56,120 bases of DNA from Halorubrum persicum. GTDB taxonomy: Archaea; Halobacteriota; Halobacteria; Halobacteriales; Haloferacaceae. The stretch covers positions 1 through 56,120 of the forward strand of contig NZ_NHOA01000031.1 in NCBI RefSeq assembly GCF_002727125.1, written 5' to 3'. The position numbers were made by a program, and so were the translations under genes. Positions 6,186 through 11,401 of the stretch are shown here, piece after piece. The notes beneath the pieces were generated by a model. The model was not told the DNA's origin. It saw only the letters and a program-made list of their open reading frames with translations, and did no database searches. Every line of letters starts with the position of its first letter. Position 1 is the first letter of the stretch.

Positions 6186-7157
6186 ATGTCCCGGACTGCG
6201 CTGATCGAGAACGTCACCGCGATGCTGGAGGACGCGGGCTTCCTCGTCAGCGACCGGTGTGCGGTCCGGCCCAAGAGCTTCGACGTGGCGGCACGCCGCG
6301 GCGAGGACCTCGTGCTGTTGAAGATCCTCGGCAACGTCGACGCGCTCGACGCGGAGACCGGCGCCGAGATGCGGCGGCTCGGCGAGTACCTGCAGGCGAC
6401 GCCGATGGTGATCGGGGTCCGGACCCGCAACGAGGATCTGAAGCCGGGCGTCGTCTACTTCCGGCACGGCGTTCCGGTGATCAACCCCGACACGGGGTAC
6501 GACCTGTTCGTCGAGGGGATGCCCCCGCTCATCTACGCGGCGCCCGGCGGCCTGTACGTCAGCCTCGACGGCGACCTGCTGGCCGACGAGCGCGAGGAGC
6601 GCGGCTGGTCGCTCGGCCGCCTCGCGACCGAACTCGGCGTCTCGCGCCGAACGGTCTCGAAGTACGAGGACGGGATGAACGCCTCCATCGAGGTGGCGAT
6701 CCAACTGGAAGAGCTGTTCAACGAGCCGTTTTCCAGCCCGGTCGACGTGCTCGACGGGGCCGACGAGGTCCGCGACGCCGACCCCACCCCCTCTGCGCCC
6801 GAGACCGACCCGGACGACGAGCACGTCCTCCACGTCCTCACGAACGCGGGGTTCACCGTCCACCCGACCGCCCGCGCGCCGTTCAAGGCCGTCTCCGAGG
6901 ACGAGGGGAGCGCCGTGACGCGGGTGCTCACCGGTCACTCGGCGTTCACGCCGGCCGCAGAGAAGCGCGCGCGGATCATGTCCTCGATCGGCGAGGTGGC
7001 CCAGACCCGCTCCGTCTACTTCACCGAGGAGGACGAGAAGCGCGAGTCGGTCGACGGCACCGCGCTCGTCTCCTGTGAGGAGCTCGCCGGCATCACCGAC
7101 CCCGAGGAGATCCGCGAACTCATCCGCGACCGAGCGGAAGCCCCCTCCGAAGCCTGA
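6186..7157 (+). CDS. Putative HTH-type transcriptional regulator (archaeal family)
   Basis: 323 residues from ATG 6186 ([20 protein letters not shown]). The N-terminal half resembles a nuclease-like or ligand fold ([20 protein letters not shown]). A classic Cro/C1 HTH follows at about 133-180 ([20 protein letters not shown] then TVSKYEDGM). The C-terminal half is a second alpha/beta domain ([20 protein letters not shown]). This order matches the archaeal putative HTH-type regulator family known from methanogens and halophiles. Its targets are unknown. It converges on the MinD gene, and a perfect hairpin lies between them. Confidence 0.85.
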
Positions 7158-7181: not shown

Positions 7182-7206
7182 GCTCTGACTGTTGAAACGC
7201 CGTCCG

Positions 7207-8703
7207 CTATCGGCCGAGCAGCCGGCTAAAGAAACCGCCGTCTCCCTCGTCGTCGTCCTCGTCGTCGTCCTCCTCGGAGAGGACGGTGTTCATCGTCCCC
7301 GTGTCGTCGTCGCGGAAGGGGACGCTGCCGGCGAGTTCGTCGTCGGGATCGGAGTCGGTCCCGTCGTTCGGTTCCGACCCCGGCCCGGATTCCGACTCCC
7401 CGTCCGCGTCGCGGGCCTCGCTCGGCGAGGGCTCCGCCGGCGTGTCGGACGCGGGCGGCTCGACCGACTCGGCGGCCTCGTCCGTATCGGCGCTGTCGTC
7501 GAGCTCGTCGTCCCCTTCGTCGAACTGGTCCGCGTCGAGGTCCGATTCGATCATCGCTTCGAGGTCGTCGCCGTCGACGTGGTCTTCGCCGACCGTCTCC
7601 GTCTCGCCGTCGACGGCGTCGTGCTGGTCCGCGGCCGGCGCGCCCGCGACATCGGACGACTCATCACCGGCGCGCTCGGCGGGTTCGTCGGTCGTATCCT
7701 CGGCGTCGGAGGCGGCCCCCTCGGCCTCCTCGATATCTTCGACGGGCGACTCCGCGGCGACGATGATGTCCTCCTCGTCGCTCGGGTCGCCGAGCCCGCC
7801 CCGATCGGCGTCGGCGACGATGATGTCTTCCTCACCCAGCGCAACGTCGTCGGGCTCGGTATCGTCGGCCTCGGCCGTCTCGGCAGGTCCGGCGTCGCCG
7901 TCCGCCGCATCGTCCGCTTCCGCGTCGCCCGCTTCCGCATCGTCGGCGTCCTCGTCGTCCGGCGCCACGGCGGCGAGCCCGGGACCGTCGATCGACGCGC
8001 CGGTCAGCGCCCGTGTCAGGTCGCGGTACGCGCGGGTCGCCGGGGCGTCCGGAGCGAAGACGGGGAGCGGCTCGCCCGACTCCACCGCGCGCAGCACCGC
8101 GTCGTCATCGGGGATGCGCCCGATCACGGGTGCGTCGAGGGTCCGGTCGACCGCCTCGATCGGAGCGTCGTCCGCGGCGGTCGCGGGGTCGAGACGGGTG
8201 ATCGCGGCGCCCGCGACGGAGCCGCCGAGCCGCTCGGTCAGCTGGCGCGTTTTCTCGGTGTCTCCGAGGGCGCTCTGTTCGGCGGTGGAGACGAGCAGGG
8301 TCTCGTCCGCGAGCCCGAGCGGGAGCGTGGAGTCGTGCGAGAGCCCCGCGCCGGCGTCGACGAGCACGTAGTCCGCGTCGTCGAAGGCCTCGACGACGTC
8401 GCGGAGCCCGGAGGGGTCGGCCGCCGCGTACGCGTCGAGGTCCGCGGCCCCCGGGACGACACGGAGCCCGGACGGTCCCTCGTGGACCGCGTCGGCGGGC
8501 TCGGCCGCTCCCGCCAACACGTCGTGGAGGGTGATCCCGCCGGAGGGGACTCCCACGGCCGCCGCGAGGTTCGCCATGCCGAGATCGGCGTCGATCGCGA
8601 CGACATCGGCACCCGAGTCGGCCAGGAGCGTCGCAACCGCGGCGGTCGTGGTGGTCTTCCCGACCCCACCTTTCGCCGACGCGACCGCATACACCGTTGC
8701 CAT
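7207..8703 (-). CDS. minD4: MinD-like ATPase with long acidic C-terminal extension (MinD4 type)
   Basis: 498 residues from ATG 8703. Residues 1-240 are a ParA/MinD domain: deviant Walker A KGGVGKTT at 11-18, switch I IDADLGMANL at 37-46, and Walker B DYVLVDAGAG at 111-120. Residues 245-490 are an Asp/Glu/Ala-rich, probably disordered tail holding two copies of EEDIIVA (291-297, 310-316). The last ten residues, GGFFSRLLGR, resemble the amphipathic membrane-targeting helix that ends bacterial MinD. In Haloferax a MinD4 with a long C-terminal extension oscillates and positions archaella and chemotaxis arrays, and as I recall it is encoded near the ATP synthase genes, as here. The paralogue assignment is inferred from architecture and neighbourhood. 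Confidence 0.8.
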   Translation of the reverse strand: MATVYAVASAKGGVGKTTTTAAVATLLADSGADVVAIDADLGMANLAAAVGVPSGGITLHDVLAGAAEPADAVHEGPSGLRVVPGAADLDAYAAADPSGLRDVVEAFDDADYVLVDAGAGLSHDSTLPLGLADETLLVSTAEQSALGDTEKTRQLTERLGGSVAGAAITRLDPATAADDAPIEAVDRTLDAPVIGRIPDDDAVLRAVESGEPLPVFAPDAPATRAYRDLTRALTGASIDGPGLAAVAPDDEDADDAEAGDAEADDAADGDAGPAETAEADDTEPDDVALGEEDIIVADADRGGLGDPSDEEDIIVAAESPVEDIEEAEGAASDAEDTTDEPAERAGDESSDVAGAPAADQHDAVDGETETVGEDHVDGDDLEAMIESDLDADQFDEGDDELDDSADTDEAAESVEPPASDTPAEPSPSEARDADGESESGPGSEPNDGTDSDPDDELAGSVPFRDDDTGTMNTVLSEEDDDEDDDEGDGGFFSRLLGR

Positions 8704-8725
8704 ACGGTGAGGGTCCGGCGACTGG

Positions 8726-8733
8726 TACTTAAA
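8726..8733 (-). promoter_or_regulatory. TATA box of the MinD4-like gene
   Basis: TTTAAGTA on the minus strand is centred about 27 nt upstream of the ATG at 8703, indicating a leaderless transcript divergent from the ATP synthase operon. Confidence 0.55.
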
Positions 8734-8822
8734 TGTAGGCGGCGACAGCGCGATCGGAGCCGCGTTCCGGCGCGATCGACCGTCTGCGTCGCCGGAAGCG
8801 CGAGCACACTTTCGCAAACACC

Positions 8823-8829
8823 TTATACG
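8823..8829 (+). promoter_or_regulatory. Promoter of the ATP synthase operon
   Basis: The TTATACG box lies 31-37 nt upstream of the atpH ATG at 8860. Transcription would start about 8-12 nt before the ATG. It is the first evident promoter for atpH-atpB. Confidence 0.5.
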
Positions 8830-8859
8830 TCGCTTGTAGAGTTTCAGGCGATTAGTAGC

Positions 8860-9216
8860 ATGGCGAGACCAGAGGTGCTCAACTCGATCAAGCAGGCCGA
8901 ACGGGACGCGGATGAGATTATCGCGGAGGCTGAGTCGGACGCCGACGAGCGCCTCGCTGAGGCTCGAGAGCGCGCGGACGAGATCCGCGCCGAGGCCGAG
9001 GAAGCGGCGGAATCCGAGGCCCAAGAGCGGCTCGAATCGGCCCGCGAGGAGATCGAGGAACGCCGCGAGGAGATCCTCGAATCGGGTCGTGCCGACCGCG
9101 ACGAGCTCGAACGCGAGGCCCGCGACCGCGTGGACTCGGCCGTCGACTACGCCGTCGAACGGTTCGAAGAAGCGGTGAACCAACAGGCCGAGGAGGCGGT
9201 GGATGCTCAGGCCTGA
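8860..9216 (+). CDS. atpH: A-type ATP synthase subunit H
   Basis: 118 residues from ATG 8860. Apart from the first ten residues the protein is one long Glu/Arg/Ala heptad helix (IAEAESDADERLAEARERAD and similar), as expected for AhaH, which pairs with subunit E to form the peripheral stator stalk between the A1 head and subunit I. It is the first gene of the ATP synthase operon and its end overlaps the start of atpI by 14 nt. The track frame extends much further upstream as a shadow of minD4; the promoter at 8823 and the family N-terminus support 8860. Confidence 0.92.
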   Translation: MARPEVLNSIKQAERDADEIIAEAESDADERLAEARERADEIRAEAEEAAESEAQERLESAREEIEERREEILESGRADRDELEREARDRVDSAVDYAVERFEEAVNQQAEEAVDAQA

Positions 9217-11401
9217 GCGGATGAGCAAGGTGTCGGTGACGGGCTCGAAGCGCGTCATCGACGACGTGATCGAGGCGACGTACGAACACCACTCCCTGCA
9301 CGTCACCGACTACGACGAGCGCTACGAGGGCTTCTCGCCCGGCGAGTCGCTCGACGGCGCGGAGACCGTCAACGAGAAGCTCGTCACTGTGCGCTCGCTA
9401 GAGAGCATCCTCGGCGTCGAGGGGGACGAAGTCGACGGGGCCCGCCCGCTCGACGACGAGGCGCTCGAGTCGGAGCTCGCCGACGTGCGCGAGCGCGTCA
9501 ACGATCTCAACGACCGCCGCGACGACCTCCAAGCCGAGATCCGCGACCGCGAGGAAGAGATCGAGCGGATGGAGCCGTTCGCGGACCTGGGCATCGAACT
9601 CGACCTGCTCGGCGGGTACGACTCGCTCGAAGTGATCGTCGGCGAGGCGAAGCCGGACGCGGTCGAGGCGACGCTCGCCGACGCGGACGGGATCGACGCC
9701 TTCGACGTGTTCGCCGGGAGCGACGTCGTCGCGATCTTCGCGCGCCCCGCCGACGGGGCCGACGAGGGCGTCCTGCAGGACTCGCTCGTCGGCGTCGACA
9801 TCGCCCTGCTGGAGGTTCCGGAGGCGGACACCAGCCCGGGCGAGTACGTCGCGGAGCTGGAGCGCGAACGCGAGGCGCTCCGGAGCGACCTCGAGGAGGT
9901 CGAAGCGGAGCTCGACGCGGTGCGAGAGGAGGCCGCCGGCTTCCTGCTGCGCGCCGAGGAGCAGCTCACCATCGAAGCGGAGAAGAAGCAGGCGCCGCTC
10001 TCCTTCGCGACCACCGAGAACGCCTTCATCGCGGAGGGGTGGGTTCCGACCGAGACGTTCTCCGACCTGAAGGCGGCCGTCACCGACGCGGTCGGTGACC
10101 ACGCCGAGGTCGAGGAGCTGGAACGCGCCTCCTTCACCCCCGACGGCGACCACCACACCGAGGCTGTCGCGGACGGCGGCGCGGAACCCGCGGCGGCCAC
10201 GGACGGCGGCCACGCGGCTCACGGCGACGACGACCCGCCGGTCGTTCAGGACAACGGGAGCGCGGCCGGCCCCTTCGAACTGCTCGTGCAGGGGTTCGGG
10301 CGGCCGAAGTACTCTGAGTTCGACCCGACGCTGCTAGTGTTCCTCACGTTCCCGCTCATGTTCGGCTTCATGATCGGCGACGTGGGGTACGGCGTGCTGT
10401 ACGCCGCGATCGGCGCCTTCCTGTACAGCAGGTACGACGGGACCTTCCGCGAACTCGGCGCCGTCGCGCTGTGGGCCGGCGGCTTCACGATCCTGTTCGG
10501 GATCTACTTCGGGATCGACGTGTTCGGCTACCACGCCTACCAGCTGCTGCCGGGCGACGTCCACTGGCCCGTCGACGGGAAGGGGCTCTCGCCCGCCGAC
10601 ATCGACTGGGCGCTGTCGTTCCTGGTCGCCAGCGTGCTGTTCGGGCTCGTCCACCTGAACGCGGGGCACGTCCTCTCGTTCGTGAGCAACTACCAGCAGC
10701 ACGACCTGAAGCACGCCCTCTACGAGGGCGGCTCGTGGCTGCTGATCCTCAACGGCGCGTGGATCTGGGTCTTCAGCCAACAGCTCCCCGGTCCGAAGCC
10801 GGACTTCCTCTACGAGTCGTTCTCGCTGCTCACGTTCGGGATGGTGTCGTTCGACACCTTCCCGGTCCCGGTCGAGGTCGGCTACGTCGCCATCGCGGCC
10901 ATCCTGCTCGGCATCGGCCTGCTCGCGGTCGGTGAGCCGCCGGAGCTCGCGGAAGTGCTCTCGCCGATCGTGAACGTCATCTCGTACGCGCGGATCATGG
11001 CCGTCCTGCTCGCGAAGGGCGGGATGGCGCTCGCCGTGAACCTGCTCGCGTTCGGGGCGTATATCGGCGAGGGTGGAGAGGGGAGCTTCCACTTCATCTT
11101 CAGCGCCGACTACCTCGAGTACATCCAGAGCCACCCCGAAGAGTACGAGCTCGTCTTCGCCGGGATCACGACCGCGTTCGATCCGGCATCGATCGGCGCG
11201 GTCGGGATCGTCGCGCTCGTCGGTGGGATCCTGGTCGCGGTCGTCGGTCACATCGTGGTCCTGGCGCTCGGGGTCACCTCCGCCGGCATTCAGGCGGTGC
11301 GTCTCGAGTACGTGGAGTTCTTCGGGAACTTCTACCAGGGCGGCGGCGACTCGTACCTGCCGTTCGGGTACGACCGGCAGTACACCGCCGACGAGGAGTG
11401 A
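9203..11401 (+). CDS. atpI: A-type ATP synthase subunit I (a-subunit)
   Basis: 732 residues. The N-terminal half is cytoplasmic with coiled coil (about 85-130 and 215-255). It is joined by a His/Gly/Asp-rich linker (about 310-350) to a membrane half with seven or eight hydrophobic segments beginning LLVFLTFPLMFGFMIGDVGY. This is the static stator subunit that forms the proton half-channels against the c ring; the family's essential Arg lies in the ISYARIMAVLLAKGG segment. The start MLRPERMSKV overlaps atpH, so the two are translationally coupled. A methionine six residues later is an alternative start. The flexible 40-residue linker is longer than in many homologues and looks like halophilic padding. 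Confidence 0.93.
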   Translation: MLRPERMSKVSVTGSKRVIDDVIEATYEHHSLHVTDYDERYEGFSPGESLDGAETVNEKLVTVRSLESILGVEGDEVDGARPLDDEALESELADVRERVNDLNDRRDDLQAEIRDREEEIERMEPFADLGIELDLLGGYDSLEVIVGEAKPDAVEATLADADGIDAFDVFAGSDVVAIFARPADGADEGVLQDSLVGVDIALLEVPEADTSPGEYVAELEREREALRSDLEEVEAELDAVREEAAGFLLRAEEQLTIEAEKKQAPLSFATTENAFIAEGWVPTETFSDLKAAVTDAVGDHAEVEELERASFTPDGDHHTEAVADGGAEPAAATDGGHAAHGDDDPPVVQDNGSAAGPFELLVQGFGRPKYSEFDPTLLVFLTFPLMFGFMIGDVGYGVLYAAIGAFLYSRYDGTFRELGAVALWAGGFTILFGIYFGIDVFGYHAYQLLPGDVHWPVDGKGLSPADIDWALSFLVASVLFGLVHLNAGHVLSFVSNYQQHDLKHALYEGGSWLLILNGAWIWVFSQQLPGPKPDFLYESFSLLTFGMVSFDTFPVPVEVGYVAIAAILLGIGLLAVGEPPELAEVLSPIVNVISYARIMAVLLAKGGMALAVNLLAFGAYIGEGGEGSFHFIFSADYLEYIQSHPEEYELVFAGITTAFDPASIGAVGIVALVGGILVAVVGHIVVLALGVTSAGIQAVRLEYVEFFGNFYQGGGDSYLPFGYDRQYTADEE

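Follow-up and report, generated by a model that had tools for sequence, protein, structure and literature searches.

MinD-type ATPases and haloarchaeal MinD4

The MinD-like ATPases FlhG and FleN determine where flagella are placed or how many there are. In bacterial MinD of the E. coli and B. subtilis type, a deviant Walker A ATPase is joined to a hydrophobic and basic C-terminal end that targets the membrane. PMC8155659 describes this membrane-targeting sequence (MTS) as an amphipathic helix that is too weak alone and is strengthened by dimerisation. In the archaeon Haloferax volcanii, four MinD-type proteins are reported (PMC11588486). According to PMC11621097, H. volcanii MinD4 (HVO_0322) oscillates from pole to pole and forms polar caps; changes to its Walker motifs leave the oscillation intact but not the caps, and truncation of its extended C-terminal tail impairs motility.

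The minD4 locus of Halorubrum persicum

The window analysed here, 56,120 nucleotides of contig NZ_NHOA01000031.1 from Halorubrum persicum, carries an orthologue of this gene at 7207..8703 on the minus strand. Its product comprises 498 amino acids followed by a stop codon, starting with MATVYAVASAKGGVGKTT and ending with DDEGDGGFFSRLLGR. An earlier note on this DNA gave the same coordinates, which are correct, with no strand, and proposed a MinD-like ATPase whose membrane-targeting end is carried on a long acidic tail. This central idea is right, although the tethered anchor is not new, as protein, tail, and anchor all belong to the known MinD4. We consider it likely that the protein is an ATPase that cycles on and off the membrane by means of a tethered anchor, with candidate docking boxes for a general polarity or cell-organisation partner. 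The sequence itself shows an intact core, an acidic tail predicted to be disordered, a terminal motif, and short boxes, and we infer everything that concerns the partner.

Two open reading frames, at 8860-9216 (+) and 9203-11401 (+), run divergently from minD4, and we take them to be atpH and atpI of the A-type ATPase operon. The same order of minD4 and divergent atpH-atpI is found in genera g1 (Halorubrum), g12, and g14 (genus and family labels are ours), whereas in Haloferax, as in several other genera, genes common to the A-ATPase operon are located on a different side of minD4. A gene at 6186-7157 (+), the product of which is presumably helix-turn-helix regulator-like, converges on minD4 and is adjoined by a minus-strand gene, extending up to 6010, that appears to us to resemble TiaS; both neighbours recur in Halorubrum. 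High GC content is the most likely reason for a 674-aa open frame opposite minD4 (7192-9216, plus strand).

ATPase core and orthology with Haloferax MinD4

The ATPase core (residues 1-235; 7999..8703, minus strand) belongs to a protein matched by the Pfam family CbiA/ParA. Its match to TIGR01969 (NCBIfam minD_arch) covers residues 5-237 and reaches 194.5 bits, 7 bits below the curated cut-off of 201.75; two Haloferax orthologues pass this cut-off (L174, 210.9; L208, 209.3), and a short orthologue, L151, lies below it at 200.0. The protein is thus not filed under TIGR01969, and is instead filed as a MinD4 orthologue on the basis of reciprocal match, tree, and tail. The deviant Walker A motif KGGVGKT occupies residues 11-17, and K11, G12, G13, G15, K16, and T17 are invariant in a 54-row alignment, which includes the signature lysine K11 together with K16. 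Judged by its sequence, the protein is a member of the MinD/ParA deviant Walker ATPases with an intact Walker A in the core. In an AlphaFold2 model built on the 54-row alignment, pLDDT stays at about 90-98 as far as residue 240, bearing out the proposal that the P-loop domain ends near that position. The closest solved structures by sequence are those of archaeal MinD (1hyq, E 9.8e-41); FlhG/FleN are also among the matches to solved structures, but are weaker (E 4.9e-21).

Several observations connect this gene to Haloferax MinD4. The genome of H. persicum (158 contigs) contains six weaker matches, and each of two Haloferax genomes yields exactly four MinD-type matches (E up to 1e-5), as many as reported for H. 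volcanii. Among the Haloferax MinD-type proteins with a readable end, a long tail (368-369 aa) is present on the best match only; in L307 and L308, the core match stops before residue 235. When the tailed Haloferax MinD is used to search back, the present gene is returned first (E 1.1e-55, the next at 9.9e-32), making the two reciprocal best hits. All 21 rows of the same family, both Haloferax rows included, form one clade (96/92) in a 63-row core tree, the rows of which were hand-chosen, with H. persicum L003, L004, and L005 as well as Haloferax L307 and L308 left out. Because of the four-match count, the sole long tail, the reciprocal best hit, and the single clade, sequence comparison through these two other Haloferax genomes identifies the gene as the orthologue of HVO_0322. 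H. volcanii MinD4 likewise has a long acidic tail and a GFFSRFLG-type end. Tails in the genus Haloferax measure 353-504 aa and carry GVYTTSLVEE and DEPLVAEAEP.

The acidic tail and its conserved boxes

From residue 236 onwards the protein consists of a 263-aa tail with a D+E content of 0.38 (0.16 in the core) and a pLDDT mostly below 50, so that the earlier description of 245 acidic, disordered-looking residues was roughly right; the predicted disordered tether itself spans residues 236-488 (7240..7998, minus strand). The high acidity is partly ordinary haloarchaeal salt adaptation. Matches at E up to 1e-40 were obtained in 131 of 148 genomes of the same family (f1), those without MinD4 being partly of low completeness; the protein was extracted at all 131 loci, one of which runs off its contig (L117), leaving 130 orthologues with a complete end. 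Past residue 235, the tails of these same-family orthologues range from 24 to 504 aa (median 258), an about twenty-fold span.

Conservation along the tail is uneven. When 28 Halorubrum rows are compared with this protein, mean identity is highest in the anchor (0.96, residues 489-498), followed by block 455-478 (0.85), the core (0.79), and the EEDIIVA pair (0.56), and falls to 0.26 elsewhere in the tail. A further block, ETETVGEDHVDGDDLEAMIESDL (residues 367-389; 7537-7605, minus strand), has a slightly raised pLDDT, and its LE.MI[ED] pattern is present in nine of the 28 Halorubrum tails.

The two EEDIIVA copies pointed out previously are indeed present, at residues 291-297 (7813..7833) and 310-316 (7756..7776), both on the minus strand. 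Sequences of the form [DE][IVL][IVL][VI]A occur in 38/129 f1 tails (shuffled mean 1.1), 20 of which have two copies, compared with none after shuffling; all 20 doubles belong to Halorubrum and are spaced exactly 19 residues apart. Only five of 26 genera contain the motif: Halorubrum (23/28), g6 (9/12), g25 (3/5), Haloferax (g28; 2/15, one copy each), and g8 (1/2). A role of EEDIIVA as the conserved docking motif is not supported by this distribution, and with 38/129 tails it is rejected as the main family-wide element and retained as a mostly Halorubrum feature.

Better conserved than EEDIIVA, and overlooked in the earlier note, are two candidate boxes beside the anchor, within residues 455-478: a PF box, SVPFRDDD (residues 460-467; 7303..7326, minus strand), which emerged from an unbiased motif search, and GTMNTVLSEE (residues 469-478; 7270..7299, minus strand), which follows the pattern [GSDT]x[YMF]xTxL. 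From its place and pattern, the latter is likely the counterpart of GVYTTSLVEE in other genera. The search covered 56 tails of at least 110 aa, with at most three per genus, and returned AIPFADDD-, GVYTTSLVEE-, and DPLIPDAE-like motifs with scores about three times the best from shuffled tails. Because some of these tails had also served to train the motif matrices, and two matrices share IPF sites, regular-expression counts were relied on instead. By this measure, [VI]PF is found in 77/129 f1 tails (shuffled mean 0.77) and 12/26 genera, [GSDT]x[YMF]xTxL in 69/129 (shuffled mean 0.26) and 9/26 genera, and one or the other in 17/26 genera, the shuffle controls leaving common ancestry uncorrected. 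Exact 5-mers common to at least three genera show a modest excess (72, against a shuffled mean of 44 and maximum of 56). Outside the family, where 62 loci were hand-chosen from 243 genomes, [VI]PF is present in all f6 (8/8) and f17 (11/11) tails and absent from those of f7 (0/16), f4 (0/11), and f12 (0/7).

It may be asked whether the tail is anything more than a salt-adapted entropic spacer, with the anchor alone mattering and the boxes being functionless residue of lineage. The wide range of lengths, from 24 to 504 aa, the low conservation of most of the tail, and the seven of 26 genera without any of the four box types are in keeping with such a spacer. However, within Halorubrum the conservation of block 455-478 equals that of the ATPase core, and three families whose tails otherwise differ all have the PF box; we regard the spacer explanation as unlikely, though the strongest of the alternatives, and favour tail boxes that serve as docking sites.

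Each of the two box patterns was also sought in the DNA of six genomes. GVYTTxL matched in five, four times inside minD4; the fifth match (L331) is close to an ORF resembling that of an elongation factor, in an apparently spurious frame. VPFRD[DE] gave nine matches, including the minD4 tails of four genomes; three (L335, L336, and L341), from three Halorubrum genomes, fall in a protein that looks folded and ordinary, and L334 and L338 look like chance. At the sensitivity of exact patterns, no second tail protein with a box was detected in the genomes searched.

Relationship to archaella and chemoreceptors

The tail repeats had been proposed as docking sites for partners that place archaella and chemoreceptors. 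Within f1, ArlD/E (PF04659) is found in 128/148 genomes and CheW in 113/148. MinD4 and ArlD/E occur together in 122 genomes, MinD4 only in nine, ArlD/E only in six, and neither in 11 (Fisher p 1.1e-7, uncorrected for relatedness), which indicates that MinD4 goes with motility. This co-occurrence, and the impaired motility that PMC11621097 reports upon truncation of the H. volcanii tail, would agree with boxes that dock directly on archaellum or chemosensory proteins. The distribution of the boxes themselves, however, does not follow these systems: five of six f1 genomes with MinD4 and without ArlD/E and CheW matches keep a PF or GVYTTSL-type box, all five f6/g33 genomes, in which ArlD/E is missing and CheW present, retain the PF box, and genus g24, with ArlD/E in 12/12 genomes, has tails of only 24-102 aa and no box at all. 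A correlation between box and archaellum is thus unsupported by the f1, f6/g33, and g24 genomes, and direct docking on these machineries appears improbable.

The putative terminal membrane-targeting motif

The last ten residues, GGFFSRLLGR (489-498; 7210..7239, minus strand), had been likened to the MinD MTS, and this comparison gains weight from orthologues and bacterial relatives alike. The terminal motif is present in all 130 same-family orthologues with a complete end, whatever the length of the spacer (24-504 aa); 128 fit the expression G[FLI][FLI]x[RW][FLI][FL], the other two having one extra residue (L197) or a different frame after a run of N (L164). In bacterial relatives, a comparable hydrophobic end lies 21-42 residues past the core (34/36), whereas in the present protein about 253 aa of spacer separate the two. 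Short archaeal MinD proteins of the Halorutilus/Methanoperedens type (L288, L028) have a related core and a hydrophobic C-terminus, but no spacer; their end follows the core after 26-27 aa, leaving no tail boxes. The f9 and f11 lineage is without a spacer and has GFVNKMAKAIFG-like ends 26-27 aa past the core.

Structural analysis of the last residues had been recommended in the earlier note. AlphaFold2 predicts a short helix at residues 492-495 with low confidence, and in the model of L151 (tail of 24 aa) a helix spans residues 251-256 with a pLDDT of about 65, so that the modelled helices have no more than 4-6 residues. Measured against permutations of the same ten residues, the hydrophobic moment of this end is unexceptional, being higher than in only 79% of them; the median percentile for 129 ends, each compared with its own permutations, is 0.88, and in 19/129 tails another 8-mer equals or exceeds the moment of the end. 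Conservation, retention at every spacer length, and the comparable bacterial ends support the view that the last residues resemble a displaced MinD-type MTS. That the motif is instead a peptide binding another protein or the core itself, as its length of only 8-10 residues, its short low-confidence helix, and its highly specific conservation (R494 is 100% conserved in the 28 Halorubrum rows) might suggest, is the least probable of the alternatives, given that the 40 different endings among the orthologues keep hydrophobicity and a basic residue but not the exact sequence, that bacterial MinD ends are of the same kind and in the same place, and that MTS function is established in bacterial MinD according to PMC8155659.

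A second MinD paralogue in genus g22 (L220, L221, and L222) has its own tail of 170-191 aa with a RGRLGSVVRAVRGPF-like basic-hydrophobic end, perhaps an independent tethered anchor.

Proposed mechanism

In the membrane-cycling scheme with a tethered anchor, and by analogy with bacterial MinD, ATP-bound dimers would attach to the membrane by a pair of weak C-terminal helices, each placed on a long, flexible acidic tether and not directly on the core, which would let the dimer engage from a distance. The PF box, the GVYTTSL/GTMNTVL box, and the Halorubrum EEDIIVA pair would dock at least one partner that drives oscillation or keeps polar patches in place. A general factor in polarity or cell organisation is the probable partner, rather than the archaellum or the chemosensory array itself.

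No recognised MinE accompanies the oscillation of MinD4, which, according to PMC11621097, does not depend on its Walker motifs either. One speculative extension, which we hold to be possible yet doubtful, is that the tail of MinD4 serves as a modular scaffold for polarity whose [VI]PF and GVYTTSL/GTMNTVL boxes, situated between core and anchor, recruit a novel haloarchaeal polarity factor, a functional stand-in for the missing MinE that is older than, and independent of, the archaellum and chemosensory arrays. If true, this would explain the oscillation of H. volcanii MinD4 without its own ATPase motifs. The boxes provide a 24-residue target (455-478; GVYTTSLVEE in Haloferax) for a partner search, and the natural tether series (24 to 504 aa), together with anchor-less versions from Natrialbaceae, makes the role of tether length testable with natural proteins. 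No report of the boxes, the natural tether-length series, or the loss of the anchor in Natrialbaceae was found in the literature searched, which did not include Nussbaum 2020, where the MTS of H. volcanii MinD4 is reportedly required for oscillation.

Distribution and probable loss of the anchor in other families

Among the hand-chosen loci outside the family, all 37 ends from f4, f6, f8, f9, f11, f14, and f17 have at least three bulky hydrophobic residues in the last nine. By the same measure, f12 ends are weaker (1/7), though SLLSRVTGGLLG-like, and no such hydrophobic end is present in f7 (0/16) or f10 (0/2). Both f7, which corresponds to Natrialbaceae, and f10 group in the tree with f6 (98/98); because f6 keeps the anchor, its loss from the MinD4 of f7 and f10 is the simpler reading. 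ArlD/E is nevertheless present in 12/18 of these anchor-less genomes (10/16 in f7 and 2/2 in f10), so that a genome with archaella does not in every case need anchor and tether. By regular expression, 15 of the 16 f7 proteins (L233, L235-L248, and L295) end in DDVSSAITEAESD or similar, an ending common to the named loci L020 and L022, by which f7 is assigned to Natrialbaceae, and this DDVSSAITEAESD-like peptide faintly resembles the GVYTTSLVEEAES box.
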